A stretch of 64,000 bases of DNA from contig JAPMOS010000041.1 of the NCBI GenBank assembly GCA_027972325.1, forward strand, positions 180,001 through 244,000. Direction: 5' to 3'. The DNA is from Paratrimastix pyriformis. Taxonomy: Eukaryota > Preaxostyla > Paratrimastigidae. Positions 1-64,000 of this stretch are shown here, in pieces (the stretch's first letter is position 1; each line of letters opens with the position of its first letter). Under the pieces are notes generated by a model. It had not been told where the DNA came from and did not search any database. It worked only from the letters and a program-made list of their open reading frames with translations. The translations under genes and the position numbers were made by a program.

Positions 1-2440
1 AGACCTTTTGCCAGAGAGAACGTGGGTGGCGGGTTCCGATAAGCCCAGAGAACCGTGCTGACATACCACAGACGGGAATGGGGCCCAAGTGGTCCCCGGA
101 CGAGCGAACGGCGAGAGGAGAAGGGGACTGAACTCCAAAACTCGAGGTCGACGCTGCGGGCGAACAAAGATAAAAAGGAAAATTTCGTAGGTTCAGATTT
201 TTCTAAATACTGTTTAGTGTCCGAATATGCTGAAACGAGGTGGATCACCTTGACGGACGGCGCTGAAGCCCCCATACAATGGAGTCCCGAACGAAAAAAG
301 ACGTGACCAGGAACGCAACTGATTGGGAAAAAACCCTATGGAATCAACCAGCGTGAAAGTCGCATCGGCTACAGTGTCGCGATCCCTGGGGAGGAGGAAA
401 ACCCATGCGACATGCCGAAGAGGGAACCTCGGAATTGTGGTTGCTGGAGATTCTGGTCTTGCTATAAGTTAGAGGAGAGCCCATGATAAAGACCCCATCA
501 AAAAGAGAGCTCACAAAACGTTTCTCCTGGAGAAAAGGTCATGCCAATGGTGATCCCCCCGAAGTGAAAGTTCTCAGGGGTAAGTTTAAAAACTTCTTCA
601 AGATCCCTCGGGGTGTTTCCGAATCAGCATCGAACGGCCGTTTTGGCCACCGACTCGACGGCGTTCCGCACCTAGTCTGGATTAGGCTGGGTAGTGGCCA
701 CCCAGCCTGAGCCAGGCTGGAATGTGTGCAGCGCACCCGAGTGGATCACCCCCAGGCTGGATTAGGATGCGAAAAGAGTGAATTTCACCGCACGGCTCGT
801 AGAACTAATATGCCGGCTTGCAGTGACCAAGCTCCGACATTCTGATCAATGCGGTCACTCTGCGCGTCTGCGAGTGTTGCTTTCCACTGACCCAAAGGAA
901 TATGTACCGTTTTCAGGTTTCATAGGCTATTTGATGAGTCGAACGGCTGAACCAGCATATACTCAATTGAGACTTGGTAACGCTCCTCAGCTCGCCACTG
1001 TTCTCTTTCAGCGAAGTATTTCCTTCAGAAAGTAAGCATACCATGGTCTTGTCTGCTGTTCTTTGCCCAAAAATTCGGGATGTTCTTGTGACGATAGAAT
1101 CGGAAAGCACCAGAGCCTTCCGATCGTTGTTCGGCCGATTTTCAATGAACTGGGTCACGTTCCACCACCTCTTGTCGTTCCTCCACCACCTCCTGCAGTC
1201 TGCCCATGATTTTCCAGCTGATCACCCGCTCTTCCGAGGTCTGTTACGTGTCCAGTCCACGCTCATTCGCGCCACTCGCCACTCACTCCACGATTGGCAT
1301 TGCTCCACGCACACATCCCTAACTGCAGAGGAGGCCTCGTGGCGCCGAACGTGGGCAGGTGCGGGTGGGCACGCGGCTGATGTCTCGCTGCCGACCTCCA
1401 ACGAGCTCCCGCTGGCCGACGTCGACTCTTCCAGGCGCTGACCTGGACCACCTGCTGATTCTCTTCCTCAAGCGCAAGGTCGCCCGCACCCGCCCGCCCC
1501 GCCCCGCCCCGCCCCGCCCAGGGGCGGGCTCCCCGGGGCATGGCACCGGCAGCGTTGGTGCGTGGGTGCGCAGGTTATGTGCGTCCAGGCGCTGGTCTTC
1601 CGCTGGCCGCACGCCGACGTGCTCGTCCTGCCCAGCGCCATGCTGACCCTGCTGCAGGCCGGCCCCCCGGTGCCCTCCCTGATGGGGGGGGGAGGGGGGG
1701 GGGGGGGGGGGGGGCAGCGGAAGTCCGGCGACGTGCACGGCCACCCGCTGGCCGAGCTGGACCTCTCCGGGCCGACCTGGCCTTCCAGGCCCACCTGATG
1801 CCACCCCGTGGCGCCCGTGGCGCCCGCCGCCCTGCCTGCTGACCGGGTGGCCCCCCAACCCCCCCTCCCCGGCAGGGCGTCCTGGTGACCCTGCCACCTC
1901 GCTCCTCCCGCTAGGCCGCCCGGACATTCTTCGGGGCTTCTCGAGCAGCAGGCATTCATGCACGTCGCCGAGGAGCGCATCGCGTCCGCCCCTGCCCCTG
2001 CCTGACCCTGCCCCTGCCGGTCGGACGCCTTGCTGCTGCTGCTGATCGGCTGCCGTGATGCGCGGACGCTACCGGGCTGCGGGTGGGTCTCGTCGGGGGG
2101 CAGGCCGGGGTCGTTCGACTTCCGGCGCACAGAGCGATGCCCACCCTGGGGCCTGGGCACCTCCATCCCGCCCTCGGCCGATGGGAGCCCCATCGGGGCC
2201 CATCGCCTGCAGCAGCGGCGGGAGCGTGCCGCCCCGGCCCACCTGGGAGTTTGTCCCAGGCAGTGGCCATGCCGCCGCCCCCCTCGTCCGGCGCGACCCC
2301 TGCGGCTCCGGGGTGGTCCCTGCCGACGCCGCCCTCCCTGTCGATGAACACGGCCGGCCCGCCTCCGCTGCCCACGTGCCGGCTCGGTCAGGGGATCTCC
2401 TTGGGCTACGACGTCCGCCCCCATCCTCATCCTCCCTCTT
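1..2440. other. Unassigned left end with GC-rich exon-like patches
   Basis: No gene could be defined. Bases 1-1300 are mixed-composition DNA with no long or recognisable reading frame. From about 1300 the GC content jumps and short plus-strand segments look exon-like, for example around 1575-1680 (reading QVMCVQALVFRWPHADVLVL and onward to LPSAMLTLLQ), but competing open frames exist on both strands because the GC-rich sequence has few stops. A G-run near 1684-1714 resembles the homopolymer tracts found inside introns elsewhere in the window, which would fit a broken-up intron-containing gene. Product and strand are undetermined. Confidence 0.3.
670..770. repeat. AGGCTGG palindromic repeat cluster, copy 1
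   Basis: This stretch repeats the heptamer AGGCTGG and its complement CCAGCCT several times in 100 bp, giving self-complementary arms (AGGCTGGGTAG facing CCACCCAGCCT). The same family recurs at 3810-3925. Nothing else explains it; it could be the remnant of a small inverted-repeat element. Confidence 0.5.
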
Positions 2441-2444
2441 CTGT

Positions 2445-3020
2445 CTACTGCACTTGGACTACGGCCACCCGCAGCTGCCCACGGTGGATCAGCGTGGAAT
2501 GATTCGCGCCGTGCCTGTCTGCCGCCCCTGACCCCCGTCTCGCATTTCGACACAGGCCAGTACAACGATAACCTGACGGGTCTGTAGGTTTGTCGTTTTG
2601 TGGTGTTGTGCGCGGACGTTGACAGACCAACGGTCTCAGCTTCTGCTCGAGTTCTCCCTTTTCGACATCCGTAATGCCTTTTCGGTTGGGTTTCACAATT
2701 TTTCTCATTTCCGACACACTCTCTTTGACATCCGTCATATCTTTTTTGAGGTCGTTCAAGATGGGTAGAAGGATGCCGCAAAGTTGCGCGGCCACGATTT
2801 CGCCCAGTTGGTTCGCCGTCAACTTGGATGATGCCATTTTGAACTGCTTTTGGGATTTTGAACTGTTTTTTGGAGCGGTTGGCCCTCTCTCTCTCTGGGT
2901 TGGAGCCTGATCATCCCGCTTTTTCTTTTCGTGCGCGTGTTTCCCTTTTTTTGTTTTGTTTTTCGAGCCAAAATTGAAGCTCATTGAGTCGCCACACATT
3001 GGCGTTGCTGGACATCTCAT
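2445..3020 (-). CDS. Hypothetical basic, coiled-coil-like open frame
   Basis: A 191-codon minus-strand frame. The first third is lysine-rich (KNKTKKGKHAHEKKKRDD), followed by a segment with spaced hydrophobics, MASSKLTANQLGEIVAAQL and then LPILNDLKKDMTDVKESVSEM, which looks like a short coiled coil. The last third is less protein-like. No family is recognised. A second basic frame lies upstream on the same strand at 3331-3753 (residues such as KERMSLIVRKRGRTDPKRG) and could be another exon. It could equally be the remnant of a transposon ORF1-like protein or chance, so confidence is low. Confidence 0.25.
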   Translation of the reverse strand: MRCPATPMCGDSMSFNFGSKNKTKKGKHAHEKKKRDDQAPTQRERGPTAPKNSSKSQKQFKMASSKLTANQLGEIVAAQLCGILLPILNDLKKDMTDVKESVSEMRKIVKPNRKGITDVEKGELEQKLRPLVCQRPRTTPQNDKPTDPSGYRCTGLCRNARRGSGAADRHGANHSTLIHRGQLRVAVVQVQ

Positions 3021-3809
3021 TTATCTGTTGTCACTTTTTTGCCACCCCCCGTATCTCCAAGTCGACCATCTCTAACTTTCACTGTTTGTTCAACGTGTCT
3101 CTCTTCACACCCCAGGACTATCCGATCGCCCCGGTATCTGCGTGGCTGCGTGGAGCCTGGGGCTCCGACTCCCTGATCTGAGATTCGCAACGCGAAAGGC
3201 CCGGTCTGACTTCTCTGGGTCTGCATCGCTGTTTTGTTTTCGATCTTTCTTCACATTTTACAGGAATCTCTCGTTGGAACTCTTCCGTTGTTGAACCTCT
3301 TGAACCAAATACAGCATGTCTCTCTGGTTTTCATGAGACTCGACCTGTAATTGTTGCTGTCGGGTTCAAAGGATTTACCAGCAAGAACGACCCGATGCCC
3401 GAGGAATCGAGAGCGAGTCTACCTGGTCTAATGTCCTTCCTCCTCTTTTTCCAATGCTCCATCATGTCTTTGTGAGGTCCTGATCGAGCAGCCCCTCTTT
3501 TTGGGTCTGTTCGCCCCCTTTTCCTCACAATCAAGCTCATCCTTTCTTTTGGGTTTTCAGTCCAAGTGGCCCGTGCTGTTTTTTTAGGTCTTGGCGTGGT
3601 TCTCAAGGCTGAGTTCTGCTGCTTCATCTGGTGTCCTGTTTTTGGCTGGGATAATCTGCAAGTAGGGCTTTTTGGCTGGAATATAGGATCGTCGTTCACT
3701 TGTTTGAAGGTGGTTCGGGAGCTCGGTTCAAAGGGAAATGGCGAGGAAATCAAAAAAAAAAAAGATCGCGGGCCCGGCGTTCGACCAGTTAGACTGGGCT
3801 TTTCCCTGG

Positions 3810-3925
3810 TTCAGGCTGGGGCCCAGGCTGGCCCAGCCTAAATTTTAGCCTCCCAACTGGTCATCCAGGCTAGGTTCTAGGCTGGCCCAGCCCCAGCCTG
3901 GCCCAGCCTGGGCGGCGAACGCCGT
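3810..3925. repeat. AGGCTGG palindromic repeat cluster, copy 2
   Basis: About ten copies of AGGCTGG or CCAGCCT occur in 115 bp, arranged as GGGCCCAGGCTGGCCCAGCC and mirror forms, so the single strand could fold into alternative hairpins. It follows an A-run at about 3753-3763. It shares its core with the cluster at 670-770, which implies a dispersed repeat family. Confidence 0.55.
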
Positions 3926-4329
3926 CGGACGTGCAGACGTGGATTGTCCCCTCGGATAGCCGCTCGCCCCGAGGTCAGAGTGACTCTTTCCGGAATTGAA
4001 CTGTTTTCTTGTTTGCTTGATTTGAATGCACACCACTGAGAATTACCCAATCTCTCTGACTTGCAAAGAATTAACAACTGTTTTTTTCTGCTTCTGAGGC
4101 AGTGTACTTTTCCGGAAGCGGTTGAGATCATCAAGATTTTCTCCCTCCAAGTGGATCGCATCGTTTACACCCGGACCGGGAAACAATACCGTCTGCAGAC
4201 CTTGTTCACGCATCGCATTTCTTTTCGAAAAACCAAACAGAGATTCGTTCAGAGGCCGAATTTACGATTGGAAGGCGTTCGCACTCGAGGAAGCATAACG
4301 ATTGGGAAATCGTCTGTTTTCTCCCTCCA

Positions 4330-5477
4330 GCTGCCCCTTCGACGACAACTCCCGGGCCGGCGACTCCGCCTGCTCAGTCGACTGACTCGACTCCCCGGTC
4401 GCCTGACAAGGCTTTGCCCGACAAGACCCAACGGGCCACCATCATTGAGGAGGATTCGGACTCGCTGGGCCGATTTCACTTTGATCCTTCTCGAGCTCCT
4501 CTTTTCCCCCCACTCCCTTTTTGCGCGACCGGATTCCTCACCACTCGAACCCCTCTCCTGTGTGCCATCATTCCTCCATCCAACATCGCCGCACCCAACG
4601 GCGAGGGCCAGATCCTCAACAAGGGACTGAACTTCTCTCTGAGGCCGTCCTCCAGTTCCACGCCGCCGGAAACCTTCTCCCTGCTGGCAGCGCCTGTTCC
4701 TTCGTCTTCTGGAGATGTCCCCGTGGATCATCCCGTCCCCACCAGTCAACGAGATCTGACTGTTTGGCCTGATGAGGTCTGTTTGCTTAGCAATCAATCG
4801 TCATTGTTCCGCCAGCTCGACCTCGATGCCACATCCGGAGAGGAATCGACCTCCAGCGACGACTGTGTGGGGCCAGTTGGCCTCCCCCCAAAGAAGGGGG
4901 AATATTGCGTTACTGCGATCTTGGGCCACTGTTTTGATGCCGGGCAACTCCTTTTGAAGGTGCAATGGAAAGGGTTTGGTCATGAGGAAGATAGTTGGGA
5001 ATGGTATGAGCCAAATTGTCGGGGAAACATCAAGGTCTGCCGCTGAATGATTGTTTTGACCCAAACGGTTTTTTCTTTCCACAGGCGGAGAAGTACATCA
5101 AGGAGAACAAGCGGTTGATCGATGCCAAACTTCCGTCTGCGGACCCTCCTGAGGCTGAGGAAGAGGGCCACGCCAGCCCGAGCGACGTGACGAGCCCGAC
5201 CGACGAGACGAGCGCGGTCCCTGGGCGGTCCCTCGTTTGCCAAACCGGTCCCGACCGGTCGGGACCAAACCGGTCGGTCTTTCGACCCTTGGGAACCCTA
5301 TCATCGTCCCGGAATCTCGTGGCCGGACCCAGTTCTTCAACAAGCTGGTTTCGATCGAGCCTGGTCGATCGGTTTGGCTGCGGCCTTCGCCGCGTCGCGC
5401 CGAGCTCTGCCGGCGAGGCCCTTTTTGGTGCCGGGTTCGGCGGCGATTCTCGGGGTCTAAGTTCCCACGTTAATTAA
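4330..5477 (+). CDS. Chromodomain protein
   Basis: Two exons are clear. The first runs from a splice acceptor at about 4329 to 5034 and the second from 5085 to the stop at 5475-5477; the 50-bp intron starts GTCTGC and ends CCACAG. The first exon opens with a Pro/Ser/Thr-rich stretch (AAPSTTTPGPATPPAQSTDS), then a Ser/Asp/Glu-rich linker, then a chromodomain at about 4897-5030 with the hallmark aromatic and WKG residues (EYCVTAILG, LLKVQWKGFG, DSWEWYEPN). Splicing joins NIK to AEKYIKENKRL, completing the C-terminal helix of the domain. Chromodomains typically bind methylated histone tails, so a nuclear chromatin role is inferred. An upstream exon near 4080-4320 is likely but its start codon is unresolved. 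No integrase precedes it, which argues against a chromovirus tail, though domestication is possible. Confidence 0.8.
5247..5266. repeat. Perfect 20-bp palindrome
   Basis: GGTCCCGACCGGTCGGGACC is fully self-complementary and sits among further ACCGGTC motifs at 5244-5280. It lies within the second exon of the chromodomain gene, downstream of the domain. It may be compositional, or a footprint of an inserted element. Confidence 0.6.
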
Positions 5478-16134: not shown

Positions 16135-41042
<24,908 letters not shown>

Positions 41043-56929: not shown

Positions 56930-57215
56930 AGGTCGGCCGGTGGGGGAAGGTCGGCCGGTGGGGGAAGGTCGGCCGGGGCCGGTGGGGGAAGTTCGGCCGG
57001 GGCCGGTGGGGGAAGTTCGGCCGGGGCCGGTGGGGGAAGTTCGGCCGGGGCCGGTGGGGGAAGTTCGGCCGGGGCCGGTGGGGGAAGTTCGGCCGGTGGG
57101 GGAAGGTCGGCCGGGGCCGGTGGGGGAAGGTCGGCCGGGGCCGGTGGGGAAGGTCGGCCGGGGCCGGTGGGGGAAGGTCGCCCGGGGCCGGTGGGGGAAG
57201 TTCGGCCGGTGGGGG
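56930..57215. repeat. 18/24-bp GGCCGGTGGGGGAAG minisatellite
   Basis: Units of GTCGGCCGGTGGGGGAAG and the longer GTTCGGCCGGGGCCGGTGGG GGAA alternate about thirteen times. All six frames stay open, giving Gly-rich or Pro-rich phantom proteins, so coding status and strand are undetermined. Confidence 0.85.
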
Positions 57216-57640
57216 AAGGGGCAGGGGCGGTGGCGGTGGGGGGAGCTGAACATCCCCGAAGTCCGCCCCAGTTGCATCCTGTTGGAGATGATCGGAAGAG
57301 GGCAAAGCCAGAACGTTTCCCTCCTCCTCCTCCTCCTCCTCCTCATCGTCCTCCTCTTCGGCTTCATCTTCTTCCGCCTCCTCCGTTCCATGTTCAACCC
57401 ACGCAGCCGGGCTGCCCCTCCCGCAGGGCGCCAAGGTTGCGGTGGTCAGATCGGGTGGCAGCAGCACTTCTTCATCCGGATTCCATCGGCCTGCCGGATA
57501 AGGGACAGCGCGCAGCCCCAGCAGCACCTCGAGGGAGGAGACCCATTGCAGAGCAGTCTGGTGGGACCCCGCCACCAGGTCGACTGTCCGGTCGGCCGTG
57601 CGGAGCGAGAAGCTGAGAAAGAAGGGAAAACAAACGAATG
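57216..57640 (-). CDS. Acidic exon-like open frame, unidentified
   Basis: On the minus strand, 57280-57575 reads TALQWVSSLEVLLGLRAVPY, NPDEEVLLPPDLTTATLAPC and then a long Glu/Asp tract (EEAEEDEAEEEDDEEEEEEE). The opposite strand gives a poly-Leu stretch that is less plausible. If real, the gene continues left through the Pro-rich minisatellite. No family is recognised. Confidence 0.3.
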
Positions 57641-57666
57641 TGTGTGTGTGCGTGTGTGTGTGTGTG

Positions 57667-57838
57667 TCGTGTAAAGAAGGAACGAAGTAACGGGATAATA
57701 AAACAAAAACCAGAGAGGTAGAAGAGACAGCACGAATGTCACTGCACCCGTGGGCGAAGGAATCCCCTGTGGAGGGCGTTTGATAGGCTCGTTAGGGAGA
57801 GGACAGGGACCCCCACCAGGTGGTAGCAGCGAGTAGCG

Positions 57839-57840
<2 letters not shown>
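57667..57840 (+). mobile_element. Block B, copy 1 (truncated), LINE-associated
   Basis: Starts TCGTGTAAAGAAGGAACGAA directly after a GT run (57639-57666) and is cut at AGTAGCGGC, where an 84-bp GT array begins. It matches the first 170 bp of 59101-59668 and 61179-61723 with few differences. Confidence 0.75.

Positions 57841-57924
<84 letters not shown>
57841..57924. repeat. (GT)42 microsatellite
   Basis: Pure GT dinucleotide run separating block B copy 1 from a tRNA-like sequence. Confidence 0.95.
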
Positions 57925-57927
<3 letters not shown>

Positions 57928-57929
<2 letters not shown>

Positions 57930-57998
57930 GGCGTGGCTCAGTGGTTAGAGCGCAACACTTGGAGCACCGGGGTCGCGGGTTCAATCCCGGTCAGACCC
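57928..57998 (+). pseudogene. tRNA-like sequence (possible SINE head)
   Basis: It has a good A box (TGGCTCAGTGG, 57934-57944) and B box (GGTTCAATCCC, 57978-57988) at normal spacing, but the anticodon stem and acceptor stem do not pair and the T stem has a mismatch. The loop region CTTGGAG would place TGG (proline) as anticodon. It begins 3 bp after a GT array and is followed by about 250 bp of non-tRNA sequence (58000-58250), as expected for a tRNA-derived SINE or a polymerase III promoter fused to another sequence. Confidence 0.6.
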
Positions 57999-58249
57999 AC
58001 ACGCCGTACCTGGGCTCTACATTCCGGAATATGGAGGATAAAAACCATCCGACCCTGCACTCGCGGGGACAGGACACCGGAGAGCCGCGCTCTGGCTCGG
58101 TTAGTCGGCCTTGAGCCGGCAAGACAGCTCAAATATCGGGAAGTCCTCATCCGAGGATGGGCCGACGCGCCAGAAATGGCGGCGTGAGAGATGAGAGCGG
58201 CTGTCGGTCGGGGTTCCCCCACCCCCGGCTTAAGGTTTCACCGAAAGTT

Positions 58250-59100
<851 letters not shown>

Positions 59101-59102
<2 letters not shown>

Positions 59103-59666
59103 GTGTGAAGGAACGAAGTAACGGGAAAATAAAACAAAACCAGAGAGGTAGAAGAGACAGCACGAATGTCACTGCACCCGTGGGCGAAGGAATCCCCTGT
59201 GGAGGGCGTTTGATAGGCTCGTTAGGGAGAGGACGGACCTGCCGTCGTGGCGTAATGCGGAGGGACCCCCACCAGGTGGTAGCAGCGAGTAGCGGCGCAA
59301 GGGGATTTGCACAACCACCCACCACCAGATATAGTAGGAGAGCACGCACCCAACGAACGACCGGTCCATATGTCCAGTCCCTTCGGAGCGAATCGCACCC
59401 AACCACCCCTTCACCACATCGGCCCGTCATGTGCATAAGTGAACATCGGCGCGCAACACCGAACCCGAAAAGCTTCGGGTGGGAACCCGGAGGCTCCCGT
59501 CCGCCGAAGCGGATAGCAGCCGAAGTAGGCCGCCAAGACCCGATGAGCATCGGGAGAGAGCCATGTGCACTCTCTGATCAAAGGACGCAGCCGGAGCTGC
59601 CTTGGTGTGCGATCCCCGAAATTCGGGGAGAGAGTCCGGAGACCCTCTATGTCCGACAGAACGGAC

Positions 59667-59668
<2 letters not shown>
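59101..59668 (+). mobile_element. Block B, copy 2 (full), with hairpin cluster
   Basis: Starts TCGTGTGAAGGAACGAAGTA after a GT array and ends ACAGAACGGACTT at the next GT array. The last 210 bp contain several short hairpins (59464-59479, 59539-59554, 59614-59628). It matches 61179-61723 closely; most differences are losses of GA, TG or single bases in the second copy. No protein-coding potential is recognised. Likely the 5' untranslated region of the LINE family. Confidence 0.7.
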
Positions 59669-60794
<1,126 letters not shown>

Positions 60795-60841
60795 GTACAA
60801 GAAGGGACGATGTTGAAAGGGACAAGTTGGTGTGAACAGGG

Positions 60842-60935
<94 letters not shown>

Positions 60936-60937
<2 letters not shown>

Positions 60938-61132
60938 CAGCACCCAGATCCACCGCCGGCCGCAGCCCCAAGTGGGTTTCTCCATCCCCCTACGACACCT
61001 TCACGGGTCGCCCTGATCCGCGCAGGGTGGGACGAGCCACGACAGCGCGATAGGAGAGGACGCCGCCAGTAAGATTTCGTGCGTGCGTTTTTTTCCTCTT
61101 AGCACTGTATACCCAACAGGCTCAAAGATCAT

Positions 61133-61135
<3 letters not shown>
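60936..61135 (+). mobile_element. Block A, copy 3
   Basis: Same start point (GCCAGCACC) and end point as copy 2, between GT arrays 60844-60935 and 61136-61178. Confidence 0.8.
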
Positions 61136-61178
<43 letters not shown>

Positions 61179-61180
<2 letters not shown>

Positions 61181-61721
61181 GTGTAAAAGAAGGAACGAAG
61201 TAACGGGAAAATAAAACAAAAACCAGAGGTGAAGAGACAGCACGAATGTCACTGCACCCGTGGGCGAAGGAATCCCCCTGTGGAGGGCGTTTGATAGGCT
61301 CGTTAGGGAGAGGACCTGCCGTCGTGGCGTAATGCGGAGGACCCCACCAGGTGGTAGCAGCGAGCGGCGCAGGATTTGCACAACCACCACCACCAGATAT
61401 AACAGGAGAGCACACGCAACGAACGACCGGTCCATATGTCCAGTCCCTTCGGAGTCGCGCACCCAACCACCTTCACCACATCGGCCCGTCATGTGCATAA
61501 GTGAACATCGGCGCGCAACACCGAACCCGAAAAGCTTCGGGTGGGAACCCGGAGGCTCCCGTCCGCCGAAGCGGATAGCAGCCGAAGTAGGCCGCCAAGA
61601 CCCGATGAGCATCGGGAGAGCCATGCACTCTCTGATCAAAGGACGCAGCCGGAGCTGCCTTGGTGTGCGATCCCCGAAATTCGGGGAGAGTCCGAGACCC
61701 TCTATGTCCGACAGAACGGAC

Positions 61722-61723
<2 letters not shown>
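61179..61723 (+). mobile_element. Block B, copy 3, immediately 5' of the LINE coding region
   Basis: Starts TCGTGTAAAAGAAGG and ends ACAGAACGGACTT, flanked by GT arrays. The hairpins are conserved (61526-61541, 61601-61616, 61672-61686). It is separated from the coding part of the LINE only by an 85-bp GT run (61724-61808). Confidence 0.7.
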
Positions 61724-61810
<87 letters not shown>

Positions 61811-62329
61811 GCTGCCGACCCCGTGATCGTCTACGCCAATCCCCCGCGCCCCGCGGCACGCCGTCCCCCCGGCGCCATCACTCCGCAACAGTGGGAGCCC
61901 CCTCGTCGTATACGCCCCCAGCATCCGGCAGCGCCTCGAGGGACAGCGGCGGGCGCCCCTCCCCCTTCGTCACACTGGCCGTCGGGGGCCAACAAGGGCC
62001 TACCTCCAACCCCAACCGGCATACTTTCAGCCTCAGCCCCAGCCCAGGGGCGGTGGAGGCCGCGCCTTTCGGGGCTAACCGCCCCGACAATCGGGAGGCC
62101 GGGGTCCCCCCCATGAGGGCCGCCACAACCAGGACCCCGCTGGAGGCAGCGGAAGGGGCGTGATCGAAAGTTCTCCGGCTTTCCCTCCTGCCCCGGGCGA
62201 GCCCCGCTTGTCTCCTGGCCTGTTCTCCCCTCCGCCGCAGGACCCACCACCCAACCCCCCCATTTAGCACTGGCGGGGTCGGGGCCCCTGGCGCCGGAGA
62301 GCCATGCCCCTATCCCCCCCGGCGACCCG

Positions 62330-62755
62330 GCCGCGGCCCGCGAGGACGACGATGCCCCGAGTGACGAGGCCCTCCAGCCCCGAGAGGCCGACGACCCGCG
62401 CGTCTGGGAAAGAGGCCCCTTCGTCTACATTCTGGTCGGGGCCCACGGACGGAGCTACGTGGGCGCTACCACAGACCAACGCGGCGCCTCGCCCAACACA
62501 ACGGGGCTCGACCGGGGGGGCCCGGGCCACCCGACAGAATCGCCCTGGCGCCTGGTGGGACTGGCGGCCGGCCTCGCCTGCTGGCACGAGGCCATCGAGC
62601 TGGAGGCCGCTGTGAGGAACCCCCGCAGCCGGCCATGGGCAGCCGACATTCACCGGGAGCTCTCGGCCACTGGCAGCCTCGAGGTTCTCCGACAACTCGC
62701 ACCGAGACGGGGAGCCCGCGCCTACCGCCACGACATCCGGGGGCCGCTGGACTGA
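62330..62755 (+). CDS. GIY-YIG endonuclease domain (SLX1/UvrC type) of the LINE
   Basis: After an acidic lead (REDDDAPSDEALQPREADDP) the domain opens with RGPFVYILVGAHGRSYVGAT TD, matching the paired GIY and YIG strands (here VYI and YVG). The expected R-L-x-Q-H-N helix appears as RRLAQHNG at 62482-62505 but in another frame. The original frame returns after the G-run 62513-62520 with SPWRLVGLAAGLACWHEAIE LEAAVRNP, matching the PW.L+......A...E strand-helix with the metal-binding glutamate. It continues to a stop at 62753-62755. Such domains cut DNA with a single metal ion; in SLX1 they nick branched DNA. In this element it would be the candidate target-nicking enzyme. Confidence 0.7.
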   Translation, partial: AAAREDDDAPSDEALQPREADDPRVWERGPFVYILVGAHGRSYVGATTDQRGASPNTTGLDRGGPGHPTESPWRLVGLAAGLACWHEAIELEAAVRNPRSRPWAADIHRELSATGSLEVLRQLAPRRGARAYRHDIRGPLD

Positions 62756-62959
62756 GCTCACGCAGGGGACCCGAACCGCCCCGAGGACCCGCGCCGACAA
62801 GGAGGAGGCCCAGGCGCGCTTCATCTGGGTGATGGCCGCGACCGACCCTGACGAGGCATCCGCCCGGCTGGAGGCAGGCCTGCGGCCGGAGGAGCCACCG
62901 TGTGAAGGGCCACACCAGGGAAAGGCCACCCCACCCCGCCGCCCCAACGGGAGATCGCT

Positions 62960-64000
62960 CTCCGCCAGGTCAAGGAGGCCATGACCCGGGACGGACTCAG
63001 CGTGCGCCGGCCCAGAGGCGACGCACCCGCCCTCTGGCGCGCGTGGGACAAGCTCCGCAAGGGGCGGGACGAGTCCCGCCGCGCAGCCGCCGCCTCGCAA
63101 CTCCACCTTTTCTTCACCGACCGACGTCGACTCCACCGCCTCCTCCTGGCCCCGACACGGTGCACCTGCCCGATCGCCCCGGCGGAACTGCGGCGCCACC
63201 ATCTGGCAGAGGCGGCGGCGACCCCACCCAGCACCAACCCAATCTGGCCGGAGCTGGCCCCACCTCCCCCGCTCGCCGAGACCTCCACCCCGGCCGAGCA
63301 GCCCTTCTCGGCCACCGAAATCGCCGAGGCCATCCACAACGCCGACCCCCACTCAGCCCCGGCGCCAGCCGACGCGGCCACGATCCGGGACATCAGACGA
63401 CTGCTGGACGAAGGCGAGGAGCTGCGTGCCCGGGACGGCCCCCCCTCCCCGTTCATGGCCGCCCTGCTCCACCTCTTCAACATGTGCCTGGCCGAAGGAA
63501 CAGTCCCGCGCAGCTGGGCCCGGGCCGTGGCCGTCCTCATCCACAAGAAGGGGAAGCCGCCGGAGGAGATCCGGAGCTGGCGCCATGTGGTCCTCACGGC
63601 CCAACTCTCGCGAATCTACGGAGCCCTGCTCTCGCGCCGCCTCGAGGACTTCCTGCTCAGGGCCGGCCGGATCAGTGGGGCACAGGCGGGTTTCATCCGG
63701 GGCCAGGAGAGCCACTTCTCCGTGCTCCGCTTGCAGGCCTGGATCACCAGGGCCCGCCGTGAGCGCCCCCCTTTCGCGGGCGTACTTTTTCTCGATATCA
63801 CCAATGCTTTCGGGACCCTGGGGCGGGACGCCCTGGAGGGCAGTCTCCGGTGGGGTGGGGTCCCACCGACACTGCGGCGCGCCATCATGGGCACTTACCG
63901 CGACATTGAGATGTGCCTGCCCTTTGAAGGAGAAGCCGGCGCCCCCATCCCGCTGGGCCGTGGCACTCGGCAGGGGGACCCCTTGAGTCCAACTGTCTTC
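62960..64000 (+). CDS. LINE reverse transcriptase (partial, runs off the window)
   Basis: One open frame from about 62960 to the window end. The leading part reads VKEAMTRDGLSVRRPRGDAP ALWRAWDKL. The polymerase begins ATEIAEAIHNADPHSAPAPA, FMAALLHLFNMCLAEGTVPR SW, AVAVLIHKKGKPPEEIRSWR (motifs 0 to 2 of non-LTR enzymes), AGFIRGQESHFSVLRLQAW, then motif A as GVLFLDITNAFGTLGRDALE (Asp in FLDI) and motif B as GRGTRQGDPLSPTVF at the edge. These are LINE hallmarks (QGDPLSP, LDI..AF) rather than Penelope or LTR types. Motif C lies outside. Confidence 0.85.

Follow-up and report, generated by a model that had tools for sequence, protein, structure and literature searches.

R2-type retrotransposons encode a restriction-like endonuclease (RLE) that nicks the target, and reverse transcription is primed from the nick. 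Cellular SLX1, a nuclease with a GIY-YIG domain, cuts branched DNA (flaps, forks, four-way junctions). Penelope-like elements with an N-terminal GIY-YIG domain, presumably those named Chlamys and Naiad, join such a domain to a reverse transcriptase (RT) in one protein. The available text of two publications assigns GIY-YIG to Penelope-like elements, and apurinic endonuclease (APE) and/or RLE domains to long interspersed elements (LINEs) (PMC5718144, PMC5753468). Here we describe GIY-LINE, a LINE lineage in which a GIY-YIG domain of SLX1 type shares an open reading frame (ORF) with the RT. The copy that drew attention to it lies in a 64,000-nucleotide stretch of the Paratrimastix pyriformis genome (the window; contig C344, positions 180001–244000), and the host is a free-living member of the Metamonada, Preaxostyla.

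GIY-LINE resembles RLE-type LINEs (R2, R4, HERO, NeSL, and CRE) in several respects: Among solved structures its RT is nearest to R2, it has C-terminal CCHC and PD-(D/E)XK motifs, and it inserts in a repeated target. It differs from them by its N-terminal SLX1-type GIY-YIG domain and by an RNase H region between RT and CCHC. Dualen/RandI elements (APE plus RLE) also hold two different endonucleases within one LINE, whereas the first nuclease of GIY-LINE is a GIY-YIG and its two long ORFs, P0001 and P0002, have no APE match; this comparison is one of architecture, not RT sequence. With Penelope-like elements GIY-LINE shares the union of GIY-YIG and RT in one protein and the N-terminal position of GIY-YIG, but its RT is of a different type and its GIY-YIG of a different lineage. 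The GIY-YIG core of SLX1 nucleases, including QHNG..GGA..T, is likewise present, but here it is fused to a retrotransposon polyprotein in which no RING match is seen.

No LINE architecture with both GIY-YIG and RLE was found in the literature searched, which did not extend to bioRxiv, Repbase, or most subscription journals; the initial annotation of the window had also not recognized the configuration as described. For a shrimp GIY-YIG with a LINE RT, the available part of the report judges the two parts unlinked (PMC3849965). The main text of the P. pyriformis genome paper, as far as available, contains no word beginning with “transpos” (PMC10703272).

GIY-YIG and RT in a single ORF

The fusion of GIY-YIG and a LINE RT in a single ORF is confirmed in the P. 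pyriformis genome (56,060,509 bases in 495 contigs). In the copies on contigs C1, C311, and C266, the Pfam GIY-YIG match passes the curated cut-off (E 1.7e-9 to 4.5e-9) and the RT lies in the same ORF; together with P0001 and P0002, these provide the several single-ORF copies that the initial annotation had envisaged. A search of the whole genome with PF01541 yielded 111 GIY-YIG matches. For 43 of these, an RT of the clade stands 290–1030 bp ahead on the same strand, when all 116 RT match rows from the genome search are used. In the three control arrangements within 2 kb, no match has an RT behind it in the same orientation, none has one ahead in the opposite orientation, and 1 has one behind in the opposite orientation; this match (contig C420) also has an RT at the expected place. 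The number was again 43 in an earlier count that drew on 95 of the 116 RT rows and included two of these controls; 15 of the 43 lie in equal-length frames. Because 43 of 111 matches compare with 0, 0, and 1 in the controls, the adjacency is not due to chance, and both a chance neighborhood and an assembly chimera were rejected.

The remaining 68 GIY-YIG matches, which were partly inspected, include an AT-rich virus-like family, the Penelope-like element L069, and a host SLX1 exon (L074). Also among them are two LINE GIY-YIG segments (L075 and L076) whose RT is absent from the 116 rows. The one virus-like GIY-YIG gene that was read is AT-rich and lies at L070 (C130:41601–42700); 34 genome matches, presumed to belong to its family, cover profile positions 1–74 with nearly equal scores. 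The L070 gene is perhaps part of an integrated virus-like element.

To describe the complete protein, long ORFs from single copies were used instead of a consensus. Both belong to relatives more distant from the window copy, and only in these two does the frame run uninterrupted from GIY-YIG to RLE. P0001 (contig C484) is an open frame of 1744 amino acids with Pfam matches to GIY-YIG (7.3e-11) and RVT_1 (2.6e-27). P0002 (contig C179; 1519 amino acids) matches RVT_1 (1.6e-20) and RNase_H (4.2e-6), and its GIY-YIG (3e-4) falls just below the Pfam cut-off on the protein and above the cut-off in the genome-wide search. In both, the order is GIY-YIG, linker, RT, RNase H, CCHC, and PD-(D/E)XK motifs, and GIY-YIG/RT/RNase H/CCHC/RLE is almost certainly the architecture that these sequences predict.

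Pfam detects RNase H after the RT in P0002 and in the continuation of the window copy (L062); in P0001 the domain was read by eye (TDGS...SDSQY...), Pfam giving no match. The RLE motif set (CCHC, R.D, PD, E/D, K..Y) aligns in P0001, P0002, the metagenomic relative P0003, and the RT proteins P0005 and P0009. The motifs of the window's family also align, divided over two frames. We take CCHC followed by PD...E/D...K..Y to be the pattern of an R2-type RLE, and a two-row profile of P0001 and P0002 matches the same region of the solved R2-type protein 8gh6 weakly (E 0.012). The Pfam listing for the two long ORFs, P0001 and P0002, extends to E 10 (filters remove most matches above about 0.1) and contains neither APE (Exo_endo_phos) nor a RING finger. 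Thus, of the three nuclease domains considered in the initial annotation, GIY-YIG is found above the Pfam cut-off, RLE as aligned motifs, and APE not at all in that listing. Because both long ORFs also carry CCHC, RLE motifs, and RNase H, the GIY-YIG domain appears to add to the usual LINE endonuclease, not to replace it.

An overlapping upstream ORF is present in both the P0001 and P0002 elements and has no Pfam match above the curated cut-off. The deposited gene model P0020 (PAPYR_9035) includes only the start of a GIY-YIG domain and then jumps to sequence 3′ of the ORF. A domain search of the PAPYR_9035 protein shows neither GIY-YIG nor RT, because the former is cut short and the latter skipped.

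The window copy itself is broken, and all of its features are on the plus strand. Its 5′ part (61809–62116) is defined by genome repeat matches of 61809–62356, a segment that recurs, in full or in part and at 94–99% identity, at 10 further genome places (L002, L006, L007, L013, L014, L017, L018, L061, L063, and L064; L065 coincides with L002). The peptides VYILV...SYVGATTD and PWRLVG...EAIELEA described in the initial annotation are indeed present, in the same orientation as the LINE RT motifs: FVYILVGAHGRSYVGATTD begins at 62420 and the second peptide stops near 62608, both within a stop-to-stop frame of 212 amino acids (62117–62755). A second open frame in a different register (62616–62984) holds part of the linker between GIY-YIG and RT, as judged by eye from the ORF of L061. 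The RT frame starts at 62906, fills the window to 64000, and runs on to contig position 246328; its 1141 amino acids contain RT, RNase H, CCHC, and the first part of the RLE. Within it lie the motifs LDITNAFG (63791) and TRQGDPLSP (63965) and an RVT_1 domain (63539–64000; Pfam E 9.5e-9) whose best solved relatives are R2. The frames 62117–62755 and 62906 onward are in one register, with stops between them.

The SLX1-type GIY-YIG domain of this copy (62420–62608) was assigned from the profile, family members, and the PDB matches of relatives, and its center is out of frame. Pfam gives no match on the window's own GIY-YIG segment, likely because of the 5 indel columns within 62420–62890 that separate it from the C1 copy (98.5% identical). 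The published assembly derives from Nanopore reads polished with Nanopolish and Illumina reads, according to the available part of its description (PMC10703272), so some of the window's indels could be sequencing errors. The profile of four GIY-YIG domains matches the window segment at E 8e-29, a value that is not independent because one profile row (contig C266) comes from the window's own family. The window element is probably a degenerate copy of a microsatellite-inserting, non-long-terminal-repeat retrotransposon (LINE) lineage.

Affinities of the GIY-YIG domain and the RT

The four-family GIY-YIG profile was compared with the PDB and gave eight matches. The top five are SLX1 chains (E 2.4e-16 to 1.7e-12), and the next are two bacterial UPF0213 proteins (E 6.9e-8 and 0.011). 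Within the genome, the LINE GIY-YIG profile scores 44.9 bits with the host exon at L074, 9.9 with the virus-like sequence, and 5.4 with the Penelope-like one. The host exon is SLX1; in its own PDB comparison it matches five SLX1 chains best (E 9.1e-19 to 1.8e-9). By these sequence comparisons the LINE domain is of SLX1 type and not of Penelope type, one Penelope-like element having been compared, and capture of the domain from Penelope-like elements that share this genome is disfavored by the same 5.4-bit score. The columns invariant among the four GIY-YIG sub-families include Tyr, Tyr, Arg, and Glu, which we take to be the catalytic positions. An AlphaFold2 model of the domain from a 4-row alignment is confident, with a predicted local distance difference test (pLDDT) of 81.8 and a predicted template modeling score (pTM) of 0.79. 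A 2006 survey, in the part available, separates the Slx1 family from Penelope, traces the GIY-YIG enzymes of homing and restriction back to the UvrC lineage, and reports SLX1-like proteins without RING (PMC1564403).

The two domains have diverged to a similar level. Among the four sub-families, the six pairwise identities are 33, 41, 37, 42, 63, and 33% for GIY-YIG and 33, 38, 36, 38, 65, and 39% for RT. For the close pair, the ratio of nonsynonymous to synonymous substitution (dN/dS) is about 0.30 in GIY-YIG and 0.26 in RT, and the remaining pairs are near saturation. In this one measurable pair, constraint on GIY-YIG appears about as strong as that on the RT. The simplest reading of these sequences is one old fusion. 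Repeated independent captures of GIY-YIG are less likely because GIY-YIG and RT differ to the same degree in the close pair; the five distant pairs are indecisive on this point.

A seven-row profile of the GIY-LINE RT scores 410 bits with P0003, 195 with P0005, 183 and 163 with R2, and 153 with P0009. Overall, RLE-type LINEs reach 153–195 bits and other LINE RTs 78–158, with the RLE labels of P0005 and P0009 and the APE labels of some rows assigned partly by eye. The best solved relatives of the clade's RT are R2 and L1 ORF2p. In a 28-row RT tree, the seven GIY-LINEs group with P0003 (support 79/99.7, not starred). This metagenomic sequence is the only close relative found outside the genome, and it begins past the expected place of GIY-YIG. 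In a protein search, the RNase H/RLE portion of P0001 had no match at E up to 0.001, and scans of viral contigs found no relatives. The sole bacterial or archaeal match is L077 (JAFXOW010000019.1), a short contig from sheep rumen, labeled Bacilli, whose RT is weakly related (22%).

It is extremely improbable that the element is instead a Penelope-like element with N-terminal GIY-YIG. The same genome does contain such an element (L069, named by eye from its RT motifs), and the approximately unbiased (AU) test does not reject a forced join of the clade with the very long branch of the Penelope-like row, at p 0.19 without P0003 and p 0.37 with it. However, the RT profile that gives R2 163–183 bits scores the partial RT piece of L069 no better than shuffled sequences. 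The RNase H, CCHC, and RLE motifs of GIY-LINE also stand against this identity, as does the bare match between its GIY-YIG domain and that of the Penelope-like element (5.4 bits), so that a Penelope-like identity is disfavored by the profile scores of both RT and GIY-YIG.

Taken as a whole, the interpretation in the initial annotation is partly supported. A LINE RT and an SLX1-type nuclease were both recovered, they occupy shared ORFs, and the RT does not side with the Penelope-like one in the profile comparison. The GIY-YIG domain does not take the place of the usual LINE endonuclease, because RLE motifs are present as well.

Two further elements were read during these comparisons. L069 (C457:60001–66000) has its N-terminal GIY-YIG in frame 796–4917, which also gives a sub-threshold Josephin match and no RNase H match. 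L071 (C471:12501–20500) is a different LINE with a frame of 2365 amino acids, in which RT and RNase H are accompanied by sub-threshold matches to ubiquitin hydrolase and APE.

Insertion sites and neighboring repeats

The 5′ side of the window copy abuts a (TG)43 microsatellite of the target type (61723–61808; Tandem Repeats Finder), and (TG)n also lies directly 5′ of the copies on C1, C266, C495, C311, and C267. All six copies with a 5′ boundary (window, L061, L063, L064, L065, and L010) start after (TG)n. L006, L014, and L017 extend further upstream, with 5′ ends beyond the stretch read. The constant 3′ end of the element is CAAAGATCATC; both the window and contig C266 also contain 5′-truncated copies that keep it. 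Each of the 10 distinct 3′ ends in the loci read enters (TG)n. Genome-wide, 72 sites match the 3′ end of the window's family exactly and 14 more carry one mismatch; A(TG)5 directly follows 37 of the 72. As a background, (TG)5 occurs within 12 nt at 1.4% of plus-strand positions of the window when the element region is included and at 0 without it. The family is therefore frequently inserted in (TG)n.

The 3′ end of the P0002 copy runs into (TGA)n, and (GAT)n precedes the start of a relative on C49. That sub-families differ in target is no more than a lead, because the 5′ flank of the P0002 copy itself is not such a repeat.

Other pieces of the element lie upstream in the window, again on the plus strand. 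A 5′-truncated copy of the 3′ end at 60936–61135 (96.6% identical to the 3′ end in L062) is followed by (TG)n at 61135–61184, and another at 58861–59057 lies between (TG)n arrays. A third copy of the 3′ end (58290–58624), followed by (TG)n at 58624–58861, is fused to a tRNA-like head of ∼364 bp. The head (57923–58295) stands directly after (GT)n at 57841–57924 and has motifs, read by eye, that resemble what we presume to be an A-box and a B-box. Its direct junction with the LINE 3′ end (57923–58624) gives a composite like a short interspersed element (SINE).

The same head occurs at 41 places genome-wide, including 5′ of some GIY-LINE copies. When 40 of the 41 places were compared with 29 selected RT sites and with 70 of the 72 exact 3′ ends, an RT of the clade was found within 4 kb downstream of 9 heads, and a 3′ end of the window's family (family A) within 7 kb of 7. 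The head is not called as a tRNA gene by ARAGORN, which places the sole tRNA of the window at 28237. It also does not belong to an Rfam family; the three Rfam matches in 57000–64000 are all below gathering scores. Its fold is no better than those of shuffled sequences. Finally, a repeat of ∼540 bp is present between (TG)n arrays at 61185–61722 and 59107–59667 (93%) and, in part, 3′ of the element.

Possible roles of the two nucleases

The predicted domains suggest an integration pathway in which the RLE would nick the first target strand, as in R2, and the RT would begin target-primed reverse transcription at the nick. RNase H would strip the template RNA, and the SLX1-like nuclease would then cut the branched intermediate or the second strand to finish integration. 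We infer an RLE first cut and a later SLX1-like cut from RLE nicking by R2, branch cutting by SLX1, and a published model of R2 integration. The latter includes a Holliday-junction-like step in the text available (PMC3636483). Such a division of labor, argued by analogy, is possible, if just short of probable. We think the GIY-YIG domain more likely to cleave a branched intermediate at a later step than to nick the target.

Several observations weigh against this reading. Both nucleases are predicted from sequence. Among the five family-A copies for which long sequence was read (L061–L065 with the window), not one stays open from GIY-YIG through the end of the RLE. The parallel divergence of GIY-YIG and RT comes mainly from the close pair (63 and 65%), because the order among the other five pairs (33–42%) differs between the domains and is not clear. 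The RT scores do not cleanly divide RLE-type from APE-type LINEs, since the non-RLE proteins P0011 (157.5 bits) and P0004 (156.5 bits) outscore the RLE protein P0009 (152.9 bits), and the RT tree, which had no named Dualen, CRE, R4, NeSL, or HERO rows, did not place the GIY-LINE clade within LINEs. At the insertion sites, 35 of the 72 exact 3′ ends lack a directly adjoining A(TG)5, although among the matches listed some have (TG)5 a few bases on. The (TGA)n target of the P0002 family is represented by one 3′ flank and one 5′ flank.

Alternatively, GIY-YIG could be the primary target nicker, as in Penelope-like elements, with the RLE as a helper or a fading relic. We consider this unlikely. The retention of GIY-YIG in all four aligned sub-families, with constraint near that of the RT in the one measurable pair, would fit such a role, but the RLE motifs (PD, E/D, K) are likewise kept in P0001, P0002, and P0003. 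Moreover, SLX1 relatives are structure-specific and not sequence-specific, which counts against the domain as a primary nicker. In the sources available, GIY-YIG probably cuts the target in Penelope-like elements (PMC1564403), yet microsatellite targeting is known for some RLE-type LINEs, such as HERO (PMC4640811).

Another alternative is that GIY-YIG does not act as a nuclease in the element and is a DNA-binding remnant, or belongs to a separate or differently spliced protein. P0002 offers some grounds for this view and some against our own: It has no ATG ahead of its GIY-YIG domain and so needs an upstream ORF, splicing, or a non-AUG start. The alternative is nonetheless quite improbable given that the presumed catalytic Tyr, Tyr, Arg, and Glu are invariant, that dN/dS in the domain is about 0.30, and that its fold is confidently predicted.

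It is possible, though not quite probable, that a selfish element took a nuclease of the SLX1 lineage and uses it beside its own RLE, so that one would open the target and the other would resolve a branched intermediate. If true, GIY-LINE would, to our knowledge, be the first mobile element based on the SLX1 branch of GIY-YIG nucleases, and as a LINE it would supply both halves of its own integration chemistry. How LINEs cut the second strand and resolve the intermediate is not settled in the field. With an SLX1-like, potentially branch-cutting nuclease beside an RLE, single-residue mutants could take these two steps apart. Such an element would also show that LINEs can acquire a third type of nuclease fold, in addition to APE and RLE, and that its source can be a host repair enzyme.

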